A program made the position numbers and the translations under genes. Shown piece by piece: positions 4,121 through 63,035 of a stretch of DNA of 64,000 nucleotides. Within the stretch, counting starts at the first letter, position 1; every line of letters starts with the position of its first letter. This DNA is from Candidatus Thorarchaeota archaeon (lineage in GTDB: Archaea; Asgardarchaeota; Thorarchaeia; Thorarchaeales; Thorarchaeaceae). Below the pieces are notes generated by a model. The model saw nothing but the letters and a program-made list of their open reading frames with translations. It was not told the origin of the DNA and did no database searches. The stretch covers positions 157,980 to 221,979 of the forward strand of contig JAIZWL010000002.1 in the NCBI GenBank assembly GCA_021498125.1, written 5' to 3'.

Positions 4121-4184
4121 AAATTCGGAGAAGCATACGATATAATGATTGTGAAGTGAACATGCAAGTAAGATATTGCATATC

Positions 4185-4317
4185 GGCTCTGTGTGAAAAG
4201 TCTGTACGATAGGAGGTTATGAAAAGTATGGAATCCAGTTTGTGTCCGGATTTGAAACTCTTCGAGATTCATTCTGACTTGAATGATCTATGTCTGTTGG
4301 ACTTTTCACACAGCTCC
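4185..4317 (+). repeat. MITE-like element copy 1
   Basis: About 133 bp with terminal inverted repeats: left GGCTCTGTGTGAAAAGTC, right GACTTTTCACACAGCTCC. Internally it shares TATGAAAAGTATGG and other blocks with copy 2 (inverted) and copy 4 (direct). The inner (right) flank does not repeat the left flank TTGCATATC. That fits this copy being one end of a larger unit rather than a solo insertion. Confidence 0.85.
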
Positions 4318-4378
4318 CATAGCAAGTAAAACAATTAAAAAAGGAGGGCGAATTTCGCCCCCTCATCTGGATTTTAGA

Positions 4379-5032
4379 CTATGTGTAGACCATAATTTCT
4401 GATACATCAAGATTTACAGGATTGCCAACACCTACTTGGCTCCAAGCATTGGCCTCGCCATCAAGATATATGTAGAGCTGAACTGCCACTCGATACCATG
4501 TACCACTTTGTATAGTATGATCAAAAAGTACACTGTGTTCAGCACTCATACTTTTGATGCCCTTTTCGGTATTGTGACCACCCCACCAAGGGGTAGTAAC
4601 ACTCAGAGCAAAACCTGAACTGTGTGATTCCAGACCTGAATAGCTATCTGTATAGAGCACATATCTAACTTCAATTTTAGCAGTTCCTATAGGGTAATTG
4701 GTCTCAATCATATAACTAAGACACCATGTTGTTGCAACTCTGAGATAACCCGCGGATTCAGGGGCCTTAAATCGCATTACGACCTCCATTTGACAATATT
4801 CGGGGCCAAATGGAACATTATGATCACCACATACCTCAACGGAGCCAGAACTTGCATCATGGTTTATCTTGTAGAAACAAATAGGAGGGTTTCCCACAGT
4901 TCGTGCATCAGAATACCCTGATGTATCGGTCTGAGAAATAGTAAATGCTGCACTCACGTTTGTTGTGGATATAAGAACAAACACAAGTATTACAAAGACG
5001 AATTTTAGTTTGGATCTTTTTGAATGTATCAT
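4379..5032 (-). CDS. Secreted protein of unknown function
   Basis: 217 residues beginning with a basic stretch and a hydrophobic signal sequence (about residues 8-28, then an Ala-rich cleavage region). The rest is polar and beta-rich with several aromatic residues and no C-terminal membrane anchor. I recognise no family. It is the most 3' gene of the cargo, about 100 bp downstream of the membrane protein and ABC genes. It could be a substrate or accessory of that transporter (inference). Confidence 0.55.
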   Translation of the reverse strand: MIHSKRSKLKFVFVILVFVLISTTNVSAAFTISQTDTSGYSDARTVGNPPICFYKINHDASSGSVEVCGDHNVPFGPEYCQMEVVMRFKAPESAGYLRVATTWCLSYMIETNYPIGTAKIEVRYVLYTDSYSGLESHSSGFALSVTTPWWGGHNTEKGIKSMSAEHSVLFDHTIQSGTWYRVAVQLYIYLDGEANAWSQVGVGNPVNLDVSEIMVYT

Positions 5033-5137
5033 CTAGAACACCACACATTCCGATCACTATCAGTATGATAGCATATTCGGATTCAGAATGTGAAGTATTA
5101 TACGTTCGTTAACATCTGAATTAATAGTACGGCAATA

Positions 5138-5656
5138 TCAGACCCGCCCCTTACAAAGTGCATCTATTGTCCCACGGTTTCGACACATCCTACAAAGGTA
5201 TATTCCAAATCCCAAAATCTCCGAGATGACAAAGAGAAGAAGTGGAAAAACATAAGGGGTTACTCGTGAGATCTGGATGTCGTAACGCATATTGGATATC
5301 TCAGGACTGGAGATATTTGGCAGGATAACAACACTATACCAGCCAGGGCGCGGTAACGCAATAGTGCCTGTAAAGTTTGCTACGTTCTCTACAGAAAATA
5401 TTGGTTCTAGATTGGTCATTGACCCCGAATGGACCAAAGTAACAGTGTCGGCATAGGTCAAGACGTACAGGGAGAGATTCCTACCCACAACATCCTCACC
5501 TCTTGCATCCACATAGAGATCACCAGAGCCATCGACGAGAAAACATTGATAGTCGCCACGGTTTATTAGTCGTCCATCAATTGTGGTACTTCCCGGAATA
5601 AAGGCGGCAATCAGAAACGCAAGACCCAACACAACAAGAAATCGTTCTAGACGCAT
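5138..5656 (-). CDS. Membrane-anchored exported protein, unknown function
   Basis: 172 residues. An N-terminal hydrophobic segment (about 5-25), an extracytoplasmic beta-rich region with a predicted Asp-Gly-rich strand pattern, and a second hydrophobic span near 130-152, then a short basic cytoplasmic tail with a CRMC pair. The ATG has a strong AGGAGGAGG SD. It lies 18 bp downstream of the ABC permease gene, so it is probably co-transcribed with it. Not recognised. Confidence 0.6.
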   Translation of the reverse strand: MRLERFLVVLGLAFLIAAFIPGSTTIDGRLINRGDYQCFLVDGSGDLYVDARGEDVVGRNLSLYVLTYADTVTLVHSGSMTNLEPIFSVENVANFTGTIALPRPGWYSVVILPNISSPEISNMRYDIQISRVTPYVFPLLLFVISEILGFGIYLCRMCRNRGTIDALCKGRV

Positions 5657-5674
5657 AAAACAAATTCCTCCTCC

Positions 5675-6484
5675 TTATGCCTCCATTTTCTTAAAGTAGT
5701 CGACTCCTATAATCATAAAAATACCACTCGCGATAATAGAAACCATGATTCCATAAACAAGGGCGACTAGCAGAGGAACGAAAAAGTCTTCTTGAATATA
5801 CTGGATGAGTATAATACTAGGATTGAGAAATGATGCAACACCAGCAGGGACGGATCTGAAATAAGATAGGGCCTGCATCGCAATAGATACACCAATTCCC
5901 CCAAAAAGCGATGCTGGAAGACTCTTTGATAGTATTGCAATAAGTGCAGTGACTGTAGATACAAAGAGTAAAGGAGCCCAGACTACAAGGATGCAGAGAA
6001 TCAAGATATCCATGCGGACTGGTCCCGGTTCAAAAGTGATAAGTCCAAGAATGAGAGAGAGCGTGGCGGTTCCACAAGTGGCGATGAGGACTATCAGTTC
6101 CTTTGAGAGGAGCAACTGCGATCTGGCAATGGGATAGGAACATAGTGTCCGAAACATTCCTTGATCCATATCTCTCGCAAAGCTGAGTGAAGTGAGAAGT
6201 GGGACCAAAAATGACAGAAATACCGACATTCTCAGAGACCATCCTCCTAAGTGATAGGCGGCGTGCAAGGCAATCCATTGATTGATTGCAGCCACAAGAG
6301 CCGCGGATTCGTTCGCTGAAAGAGTGGGCAGTATAAGATAATGAGCTGCTAATGGGGTACTTGCCATAAAATAGAATGCCAGAAGAATAGTTACCGCAAT
6401 AATGCCCTCTAAGAAGGGAAAGGAATAATGTGTTGTGAGTTCAAAAGTCAACAGAACTTTGAATCGCTTCAGTCTACGGTTCAT
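5675..6484 (-). CDS. ABC-2 type transporter permease
   Basis: About 269 residues with six hydrophobic spans. The arrangement of a long second extracytoplasmic loop and an FARDMDQGMFRTL motif after the second span is typical of ABC-2 permeases of the NatB/YhaP sort. I place the start at the ATG 6482-6484, eight bases after GGAGGTC; an upstream in-frame ATG at 6508 lies deeper in the ATPase gene. It overlaps the ATPase reading frame by 11 bp. With that ATPase it should form an exporter or membrane-remodelling complex; substrate unknown. Confidence 0.8.
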   Translation of the reverse strand: MNRRLKRFKVLLTFELTTHYSFPFLEGIIAVTILLAFYFMASTPLAAHYLILPTLSANESAALVAAINQWIALHAAYHLGGWSLRMSVFLSFLVPLLTSLSFARDMDQGMFRTLCSYPIARSQLLLSKELIVLIATCGTATLSLILGLITFEPGPVRMDILILCILVVWAPLLFVSTVTALIAILSKSLPASLFGGIGVSIAMQALSYFRSVPAGVASFLNPSIILIQYIQEDFFVPLLVALVYGIMVSIIASGIFMIIGVDYFKKMEA

Positions 6485-7394
6485 TTGTAATGACCTCCAT
6501 ATATGCATCCACCAATGTGCTCGCCCGCTGAATAGAATAGATGTGGCAATTCACACGAGAAGCTAGGTCTCTTAATTTCTGTTCAAACGTGCTAAGGTCA
6601 TCAAGGGTATAGCTAAGAGTCACCGTGTTGATACCAGTCACTCGTATCCCCCCCACACCCTGAATCTGTTCCAACAACGAAGCAAGTTGTTGTGGGCGAT
6701 CCGTGTCTATTCGATACCGCCCTTTGGTATGACGCCGGATCAAGTCAACAGTCCTGCCGCTCTCCAGAATTACACCTCCACGAATTAATGCAATACTATC
6801 GCAGATGCGTTCAAGTTCTGCGAGAACATGCGAAGACACAATAAATGACGTTCCTAGGTCGTTGTGTAGGTCTAAGATTAACCTGATGATCTCTTCACGA
6901 CCTACTACATCCAAATTACTTGTTGGCTCGTCAAGAATTACTAACTCAGGCTCACTAATTAGAGCTTGAGCAATACCAAGTCGTTGGAGCATCCCAGCAG
7001 AAAGAGTGCCAATTTTGCGATGCGCAGCAGCCGAAATGCCCACTGCTTCTAAAAGCACCATGGGATCCGTGCCGCCCTCATATATATCTTGAACCACGTG
7101 CAAAAATTGTAGTGGAGTCAATCTCTTCGGATAAGTGGGGTGTTCATGGAGGACACCTAACCTCTCCCGTATCTGTAAAGAGTCTCTGACCACATCTATA
7201 TTCAGGACCTTAACCGAACCAGCATCAGGTTGAATAAGACCCAAGAGGATTCTAATAAACGAGGTCTTTCCGGCCCCATTTGGACCAATTAGACCGAAAA
7301 TACCCGGTTCTATGTCCAGTGTTAGCCCGTTAAGAGCTTTAACACTCTTGAACGTCTTTACAAGTTTAGTTGCTTTGACAATTGGTTCTGTCAC
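6474..7394 (-). CDS. ABC transporter ATP-binding protein
   Basis: About 306 residues. Walker A GPNGAGKT is near residue 37, the signature LSAGMLQRLG near 137, and Walker B LVILDEP next. A C-terminal extension of about 90 residues (DRPQQLASLLEQIQGV...) is usual for ABC-2 partners. The GTG at 7392-7394 is nine bases after GGAG. The TTG at 7407-7409 coincides with that SD and is less likely. First gene of the transporter set within the putative mobile unit; the permease follows with overlap. Confidence 0.9.
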   Translation of the reverse strand: MTEPIVKATKLVKTFKSVKALNGLTLDIEPGIFGLIGPNGAGKTSFIRILLGLIQPDAGSVKVLNIDVVRDSLQIRERLGVLHEHPTYPKRLTPLQFLHVVQDIYEGGTDPMVLLEAVGISAAAHRKIGTLSAGMLQRLGIAQALISEPELVILDEPTSNLDVVGREEIIRLILDLHNDLGTSFIVSSHVLAELERICDSIALIRGGVILESGRTVDLIRRHTKGRYRIDTDRPQQLASLLEQIQGVGGIRVTGINTVTLSYTLDDLSTFEQKLRDLASRVNCHIYSIQRASTLVDAYMEVITNEP

Positions 7395-7722
7395 GCACCA
7401 CAACTCCAACCCAAATTATCATATTATTTTATTGTTGCACTGTGACTAATAGTGAACAGGTATGCATCGCGAGGCATTCATTGATAAAATAGTTCCGGAG
7501 AGGCAGCAGCCCATTCATACATGGGCCTCCTAGAAACTGTTTTCAGTCCCATCAAAATAGCAAACATACCAGTTTCAACTATCACGATTGCATACCTTCC
7601 GAATTATCGATAGAAACGCACTGCATAACAGCAACCCGTTTGTTCATTGTATCTACATAGAGGTTTCGTAACTCTTCGGTTAATGAATGGACATAGTAGA
7701 ATGCAGTGCGAAAAAATATTTT
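7395..7722. other. Intergenic region with an inverted repeat
   Basis: About 330 bp between the ABC ATPase and the Lrp-like regulator. No convincing gene. The clearest structure is GCCCAT at 7509-7514 and ATGGGC at 7521-7526 with a 6-bp spacer, a possible operator for the adjacent regulator. The region should also hold the promoter of the ABC operon, but I cannot single out one TATA box. Confidence 0.4.
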
Positions 7723-8592
7723 TCACTCAATCAGACCAGATGTCGAATATAAAACATGTTTCATGACAATTGATAATCTAAGAGGCTTGACTCCAGCGAT
7801 ACACTGATAACAATCATAAAGTTCTAGTGCAGTTTCCATAGAGTGTATCAAGAAATGATCATAAACAGTTTTTTTGTCAGCCATAACTTCCGTCATAATA
7901 CGGTAACTTTTAGGCGGGTGGGATAATGAATTCAAAGAAGAGAGAGCAAGTGTGTCAATACAGTTCGTTTTAGCTTTGATAATAATCCCAATTTGTTTTG
8001 TTTTATGTTGGTTAATACGGATAGTAAATTTGATGTGTTCATCAGTCAGTAATCTATTGATAATTCGCCGCACTGATTTTGAGGATAGTCCAATAGTATC
8101 AGAAATTTCACTTGATGTGGAACGGGGCGATATAGCAAGACATCGTAATACATCCATAATTTTTTTACCATAATTACTATGTGGATATTTAGATTGTAAT
8201 ATCGTTTGAAGTTCTACCCGATTAACATCGGGCATATCACAAAGTTTCTTCTTAATACTATGAAAATCCATTTCATTTCGGACAAATGCATTGATTTGAT
8301 ATCCAGATTCAGAAATCTGCCATAATTCTGAAATAATCATGCATGGCAAAAGGTCTTCAATAAAAGAAGATACAGTTCTACAAGTCATGGTCAAATCAAA
8401 TTTAATTGGGTAAAATCCAAAAAAAAGAGGATTAATATCCATTGCAAAGCGAATTATATTTTTTTTTCGGAGCTTTGACACACGTTTGAAAACTGCAACA
8501 GTAGAAAGTGACAACTTATGCGCAATTTGACTATAGCTTATTCGACAATTCTCTCGAAGAAGGTCAATAATATTCCAATCAATAGAGTCCAT
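7723..8592 (-). CDS. Lrp/AsnC-like winged-helix transcriptional regulator with two HTH segments
   Basis: About 289 residues from the chosen ATG. The start MDSIDWNIIDLLRENCRISY and following SQIAHKLSLSTVAVFKRVSKL is an Lrp-type winged helix, and a second HTH (ISPRSTSSEISDTIGLSSKSVRRIINRL) lies in the middle. The rest may be two diverged RAM-like ligand domains. The ATG at 8590-8592 follows GGGGTG; upstream starts would extend the protein with no homology. The coding sequence is visibly AT-richer than its neighbours, consistent with horizontal arrival. Likely regulator of the ABC cargo (inference). Confidence 0.75.
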   Translation of the reverse strand: MDSIDWNIIDLLRENCRISYSQIAHKLSLSTVAVFKRVSKLRKKNIIRFAMDINPLFFGFYPIKFDLTMTCRTVSSFIEDLLPCMIISELWQISESGYQINAFVRNEMDFHSIKKKLCDMPDVNRVELQTILQSKYPHSNYGKKIMDVLRCLAISPRSTSSEISDTIGLSSKSVRRIINRLLTDEHIKFTIRINQHKTKQIGIIIKAKTNCIDTLALSSLNSLSHPPKSYRIMTEVMADKKTVYDHFLIHSMETALELYDCYQCIAGVKPLRLSIVMKHVLYSTSGLIE

Positions 8593-8685
8593 ACCAGCAC
8601 CCCTCAGCTCAATTGCTACCAATGCCATCTCGTTATAGACCGAACAAACCGACCACATAAGTCATATAAGTTCTTTGCCAAAATC

Positions 8686-8816
8686 GGAGCTGTGTGAAAA
8701 GTCCATAGACATAGATCAATCAAGTCCGCATAGAGCCTGCGGAGTTTTGAATCCGGTCATAAGATGAGCACCATACTTTTCATAATCTCGATTGCACTGA
8801 CTTTTCACACAGAGCC
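8686..8816 (-). repeat. MITE-like element copy 2 with target-site duplication
   Basis: 131 bp. On the minus strand it begins GGCTCTGTGTGAAAAGTC and ends with the matching inverted repeat. It is flanked by perfect 9-bp repeats GCCAAAATC at 8677-8685 and 8817-8825 (the match extends two more bases). Its inside resembles copies 1 and 4 in reverse orientation. It has no coding capacity, as expected for a non-autonomous element. Confidence 0.88.
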
Positions 8817-8825
8817 GCCAAAATC

Positions 8826-8957
8826 GGCGTTATGTGGAACGTCCACAGGTATGAACAGAATCAGTCAGAGCAGGATACCGATGTGGTTGGAATAGGGCGT
8901 TACGCTGAGGTGATTTGACCTCTTACAATCGTGCTTGGTGACTTTTCACACAGACCC
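8826..8957 (-). repeat. MITE-like element copy 3, diverged
   Basis: About 132 bp abutting copy 2's duplication. The right terminal repeat is intact (GACTTTTCACACAGACCC) but the left one is decayed (GGCGTTATGTGGAACGTCC against GGAGCTGTGTGAAAAGTCC). The interior aligns loosely with copy 2 in the same orientation. It is followed by TTGCATATC, the same 9 bases that precede copy 1. Decay of only the inner end is what is expected if outer ends alone are needed for movement of a composite unit. Confidence 0.7.
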
Positions 8958-9002
8958 TTGCATATCGAAAGCCTCATAAAGTGAATACAAATCGCTACTG
9001 CG

Positions 9003-62522: not shown

Positions 62523-63035
62523 TTTAGAACAATCTCTCCACTTCGTTCTTCGAATGTGAGTTCATAATCAAATCCAGTTTCTAAAACCAGACCTTCAGCA
62601 AATTCTGTAGATTCAGTCCTTCATACAAATTTTCAGTATTTAAACTCGGATTAACTTCAAGGTGAATGTAAACAGAGTTCAATTAATTCGAGGCATTATT
62701 AAAATAACAGAGATGTCAACAGAAGAGCAACGATGAAAAGTGAGGGAGATTGCGGACAGCAACGCCAAACTTGGATATTGTCGATAGGAGCTCTGTGTGA
62801 AAAGTCAGTATTATAGTGATTATGAAACGTATGAACAATATTTTGTGTCCGAATCCAAGACTCTTCAGAACCTATGCTGACATAAACGATCTATCAGAAT
62901 GGACTTTTCACACAGCTCCGTCGATAGGAGATTAAATACTTCAGACCGTATCTCACGTATGACCTTCACTATGACGGTGATGTAGTTACTGCCCACTGCC
63001 GTTGGTGGGCGGGCAATGGACATACCAGTCCAATA
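62523..63035. other. Intergenic region carrying MITE copy 4
   Basis: 512 bp without a protein gene. A MITE occupies 62789-62919. Before it lie the surface-protein promoter and AT-rich DNA with a TATA-like ATTTAAAC tract near 62638. After it, TAGGAGATTAAATACTTC near 62930 resembles a TATA box for the downstream gene. Confidence 0.5.
62789..62919 (+). repeat. MITE-like element copy 4 with target-site duplication
   Basis: 131 bp in the same orientation as copy 1. Terminal repeats AGCTCTGTGTGAAAAGTC and GACTTTTCACACAGCTCC. Flanked by GTCGATAGG at 62780-62788 and 62920-62928 (identity continues for two more bases). Confidence 0.9.

Follow-up and report, generated by a model that had tools for sequence, protein, structure and literature searches.

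How did five co-oriented genes come to lie between the S2P gene and rps6e of a Thorarchaeota (Asgard) genome, with a short inverted-repeat element at either end and the same nine bases beyond each? The window (the whole 64,000-nucleotide stretch analyzed, G000:C2:157980-221979, from a contig of 272 kb) belongs to a genome of 3.11 Mb in 14 contigs (G000). Relatives, all Candidatus Thorarchaeota, were gathered via eIF2-gamma and include three congeners (G001, G002, and G003), of which G003 is the closest compared. The relatives are metagenome assemblies, and G000 is probably one too. We conclude, with a probability of about 0.9, that window positions 4185-8957 are a composite transposon, both ends of which are transposase-less MITEs of an IS5-family IS.

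Boundaries of the unit and its MITE family

The original prediction placed MITE copies 1 and 3 around the five genes and identical 9-mers just outside them. All four MITE copies that it listed were present, the genes (4379-8658, all on the minus strand) were intact, and the outer 9-mers agreed exactly (TTGCATATC) (Table 1). The layout required one correction: copy 2 lies directly beside copy 3, and thus the right end is a tandem of two MITEs, the outer of which alone bounds the unit. Neither bounding copy has a duplication of its own. Copy 1 is flanked by TTGCATATC on the left and by CATAGCAAG on its inner side, while copy 3 has GCCAAAATC as its inner flank and TTGCATATC as its outer flank. 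The decay reported for the inner end of copy 3 was also seen (GGCGTTATGTGGAACGTCC versus the 18-bp terminus), with both outer ends intact.

Table 1. Features of the composite unit, solo MITE copy 4, and intact IS copies in relatives (window positions unless a genome and contig are given)
Feature	Position	Strand	Details
Left 9-bp target duplication	4176-4184		TTGCATATC; exact match to 8958-8966
MITE copy 1, left boundary	4185-4317	+	Profile match E=1e-31; outer end GGCTCTGTGTGAAAAGTC intact
Secreted protein	4379-5032	-	217 aa; no Pfam family; 57% identical homologue beside the same exporter in G009
Secreted/membrane-anchored partner protein	5138-5656	-	172 aa; conserved next to permease
ABC-2 type permease	5675-6508	-	PF12730 E=1.3e-5, slightly under curated cut-off
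ABC transporter ATPase, drug/lantibiotic-exporter type	6474-7409	-	PF00005 E=1.9e-26
Lrp/AsnC-type winged-helix regulator	7723-8658	-	Two HTH regions; PF13412 E=1e-16
Copy 2 target duplication, left	8677-8685		GCCAAAATC
MITE copy 2	8686-8816	-	Solo insertion just inside copy 3
Copy 2 target duplication, right	8817-8825		GCCAAAATC; also copy 3 inner flank
MITE copy 3, right boundary	8826-8957	-	Profile match E=9e-16
Right 9-bp target duplication	8958-8966		TTGCATATC
MITE copy 4	62789-62919	+	Solo; duplication GTCGATAGG at 62780-62788 and 62920-62928
Intact IS	G003:C2		999 bp, 304-aa transposase; at contig end
Intact IS	G007:C268		999 bp, 305-aa transposase; duplication GCCAAAGAG
Intact IS	G019:C103		998 bp, 309-aa transposase; duplication CTTTTTAGA

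The MITE family was catalogued in G000 with an end-motif search and a profile built from 35 seed sequences, which together yielded 54 copies or remnants (about 50 in round terms), although strongly decayed copies may escape such searches. Full copies are mostly 130 to 133 bp. Perfect 9-bp target duplications were found at 23 or more of the 54 entries (at least), and 9 bp is therefore the duplication length of the family itself, as had been proposed from the duplications that do indeed flank solo copies 2 and 4.

Copies 1 and 3 lie in inverted orientation, are 47% identical, and belong to separate subfamilies, the similarity between which lies mainly in the 18-bp ends. Copy 3 clusters with a subfamily other than that of copy 1 (73 to 79% identity to C1:990384, C1:1333446, and C10:5981), and solo relatives elsewhere in G000 reach up to 83% identity for copy 1 and 79% for copy 3. 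These comparisons bear on whether the unit might be one large transposon from a separate family, having ~130-bp inverted repeats but no longer its transposase, and not a segment between two MITEs. The outer ends function as one inverted-repeat pair, in keeping with such a transposon; however, both copies are full-length, two-ended MITEs with close solo relatives, their inner flanks differ, and both subfamilies include solo MITEs elsewhere in the genome that have duplications of their own. We consider a single transposon very improbable.

The empty site and the parent IS

The S2P-rps6e junction of G003 is uninterrupted and provides the predicted empty site: TTGCATATC occurs there once, followed by 17 identical bases (GAAAGCCTCATAAAGTG). 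When G003 was aligned to the G000 sequence minus 4185-8957 and minus one repeat, TTGCATATCGAAAGCCTCATAAAGTG of G003 equaled the right junction of G000, with 26 identical bases across it. G001, G002, and relatives further removed likewise have an uninterrupted junction, though their 9-mer itself has diverged. S2P adjoins rps6e in all 19 of the 19 relatives whose locus was read, which bears out the claim that the unit was inserted between the two genes.

An alternative is that the module arrived by homologous recombination or on a plasmid or virus, that the MITEs inserted later and independently, and that the 9-mers match by coincidence. MITEs are numerous in G000, and the solo insertion at C3:141401 has a duplication (CTGCATATC) that is one base off, which points to some target similarity. 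However, for the 66 pairs of elements that share a contig and lie no more than 60 kb apart, the number of exact outer-flank matches expected by chance was 3e-4 (composition) to about 8e-4 (position-specific), and two were observed. Furthermore, neither copy 1 nor copy 3 has its own duplication, and the G003 empty site fits the breakpoints of the composite to the base. The pair counts and the empty site lead us to reject a chance origin of the identical 9-mers, and independent insertion, in practice refuted, is slightly less credible still than a single transposon. No copy of the whole unit at a second site is known. Equally hard to credit is homologous recombination of a resident MITE with a circular molecule bearing a MITE and the cargo, a route proposed for MITESen1 composites and some direct-repeat TIME-COMPs (PMC13367494), which would place a single copy of the duplication beyond either end. 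This route gives directly oriented, near-identical MITEs and is ruled out for this unit by the inverted orientation and 47% identity of copies 1 and 3, as is recombination between these copies.

The MITEs and the full IS have the 18-bp end GGCTCTGTGTGAAAAGTC in common. As anticipated, these termini also occur on a full IS, which is degraded in G000 (1012 bp, C1:1490102-1491113, with a broken transposase frame) and intact, at 998 to 999 bp, in G003, G007, and G019 (Table 1). Further IS remnants lie in G000 at C3:188785, C7:124054 (contig end), C8:902, C11:48112, and C1:855807. No complete transposase gene was found in the G000 assembly, where the copies either carry frameshifts or are truncated, in one case at the end of a contig. 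Since family elements occur close to contig ends (C7:124054-124300, C8:902, C2:271846, and C14:3704), an assembly gap may hide an intact transposase copy.

The transposase matched NCBIfam NF033579 transpos_IS5_2 (169.2 bits; cut-off, 140) and PF01609 (DDE domain), and the parent IS (~1 kb) is a member of the IS5 family. The parent IS has 9-bp duplications and GGCTCTGTG ends and may belong to the IS903-like subgroup of IS5, which is characterized by a 9-bp target duplication and GGC-type ends. A search of viral contigs for the transposase and the 18-bp end gave 0 matches, and no viral carrier was found.

The composite transposon is supported by the perfect outer repeats, the base-exact empty site, and the full IS sharing its ends. 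At the level of sequence, the insertion, the target duplication, the empty site, and the ends held in common with a full IS are all evident. Mobilization in trans is inferred from the ends held in common and from the length of the duplication. The most likely order of events would be as follows. Two MITEs of different subfamilies would have landed in separate events, inverted relative to each other, to the left and right of an exporter module already in place; the inner flanks CATAGCAAG and GCCAAAATC differ, as expected had copies 1 and 3 each inserted alone at the donor site. An IS5-family transposase, presumably supplied by an autonomous IS5-type copy now broken or unassembled in G000, would have paired the outermost 18-bp ends as one inverted-repeat pair and carried the entire segment into the intergenic region between the divergent S2P and rps6e genes, with staggered 9-bp duplication of TTGCATATC. 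The third MITE (copy 2) would have landed next to the right boundary afterwards. The cargo may have come from the same genome or from another lineage.

The cargo and further units in the genome

The five genes look like a module consisting of an exporter and its secreted substrates or partners. The best NCBIfam relatives of the ATPase were drrA and GldA, both below their cut-offs. The regulator gene has a GC content of 35% (28% at third positions) versus 44% for the window, lies far below the other cargo genes in this respect, and possibly had an origin separate from theirs. Across the family, the permease and partner protein co-occur in a patchy manner, in 12 of 38 other genomes searched, and none of the three congeners has them. 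The same five-gene order was found in another genus (G009:C91:1000-5100), with the ATPase 60% identical, the permease 40% identical, and the regulator about 25% identical over most of its length; no element of the MITE/IS family was detected in that stretch, which suggests that the exporter module probably predates the transposon. The original prediction had named a relative with the same five genes but no flanking elements as evidence against it, and G009 offers this in a weak form only (40 to 60% identity, another locus, another genus); it indicates that the cargo pre-existed and does not undermine the insertion. Among other Thorarchaeota genera, the exporter module also recurs in G005:C17 (ATPase, permease, and two secreted proteins); the regulator is present in the G009 module.

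Comparison of the outer 9-mers across all elements revealed a second unit of 22 kb (C1:855807-877831) with GTAGGTCTC on both sides, bounded on the left by a 178-bp internally deleted IS and on the right by a MITE. Its anatomy is that of the exporter unit, which adds support for the composite reading of the latter. The cargo comprises a CRISPR-Cas system of type III-B (Cmr1 [twice], Cas10/Cmr2, Cmr3, Cmr4, Cmr5, and Cmr6), a CARF-domain regulator, and a Mokosh-like pair, along with genes without a family. The pair consists of a helicase that matches Mokosh MkoA (E=3.7e-82) and of a nuclease of the PLD type that matches DrmC and MkoB. By eye, no CRISPR array was evident in its ~735-bp gap. In G002, the gene for myo-inositol-1-phosphate synthase adjoins that for an Ssb-like OB protein, the two genes that flank the unit in G000; since the exact GTAGGTCTC is not kept there, this second empty site rests on synteny and not on the repeat. 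G001 provided no usable sequence at this site. G002 lacks a Cas10 of this type, G003 has one with 55% identity, and its occurrence across the family is scattered. It appears that this CRISPR defense island of 22 kb was moved by the element family that also bounds the exporter unit.

A third candidate (C1:1357263-1360351; 3.1 kb) consists of two directly oriented MITEs and two membrane-protein genes. Its outer flanks, TATGACTCG and CATGACTCA, match at 7 of 9 positions, as a decayed duplication, with 0.09 matches expected by chance at this tolerance. The candidate splits fumC from sdhA; these genes adjoin each other in ten relatives for which the retrieved stretch includes both (three were aligned across the junction). 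It is a probable composite, for which the 9-mer evidence is weak and the broken synteny is the stronger argument; with its MITEs directly oriented, recombination with a circle is a possible origin here. At least one further composite from the same family, and probably two, are present in G000. By eye, the first cargo protein of the third unit has a caspase-like HG...C motif pattern, with no Pfam match.

Relation to known composites

MITE-bounded composites are known from bacteria as TIME-COMP and IMU (PMC13367494, PMC10969869). TIME-COMPs have Tn3-family ends and 5-bp (5-6-bp) repeats, measure about 1 to 11 kb, and carry antibiotic-resistance genes in bacteria (PMC13367494). The G000 units resemble them in that a transposase-less MITE pair bounds the cargo, the outer direct repeats have the length typical of the family, and mobilization occurs, or here would occur, in trans. 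They differ in their IS5-family ends, 9-bp repeats, Asgard host, and exporter or CRISPR cargo of up to 22 kb. Assignment to TIME-COMP failed, with an IS5-family parent and 9-bp repeats in place of Tn3 ends with 5 to 6 bp. In IMU and the MITE-flanked integrons of Acinetobacter, also bacterial, MITE pairs carry accessory genes (PMC13367494, PMC10969869), as in the G000 units, and the IMU composite was moved by a transposase supplied in trans, as would be the case here. IMU, however, is Tn3-derived, and the reported IMU composites have no flanking repeats, whereas the G000 unit is archaeal and of IS5 type, with 9-bp repeats.

Tn903 comprises two IS903 copies (IS5 family) with a 9-bp duplication and is bounded by full, transposase-encoding IS copies. 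On these generally known features, it would share IS5-family ends, duplication length, and inverted copies with the G000 unit, which is instead bounded by noncoding MITEs of two subfamilies. Tn7-like elements encode their own multiprotein machinery, unlike the G000 units, which have no recognizable transposase gene. Tn7-like transposons with defense cargo have been described (PMC8649781), and the second unit is similar in that it has defense genes on a transposon.

Among titles and abstracts, mostly from outside subscription journals, there were no archaeal MITE composites, Asgard MITEs, or CRISPR-Cas composites; provisionally, three features are new for MITE-bounded composites, namely, an Asgard host, an IS5 basis, and a CRISPR cargo. 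We give even odds to a broader reading, in which IS5-family MITE pairs of Thorarchaeota are a recurrent vehicle that carries whole modules, including >20-kb islands of type III-B CRISPR-Cas and Mokosh-like genes, between sites and perhaps lineages with no transposase gene aboard. The G000 units themselves indicate that miniature elements can move large gene cargoes in archaea and that the composite logic known from bacterial resistance genes operates with the IS5 family in an Asgard archaeon. Units of this kind, having no transposase gene, would be overlooked by standard annotation; MITE pairs with matching outer 9-mers offer a simple screen. For the archaeal group closest to eukaryotes, such units give a concrete route, open to testing, by which genes, including those of defense islands, may be gained in a patchy manner.

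A further pair of MITEs in G000 (C6:90311-90441 and 93508-93638) is inverted and, by eye, about 98% identical. The left flanks, GATTTGATG and CATCAAATC, are mutually reverse complementary, a signature of intramolecular transposition with inversion of the 3 kb in between and one that suggests that movement was replicative at least once.
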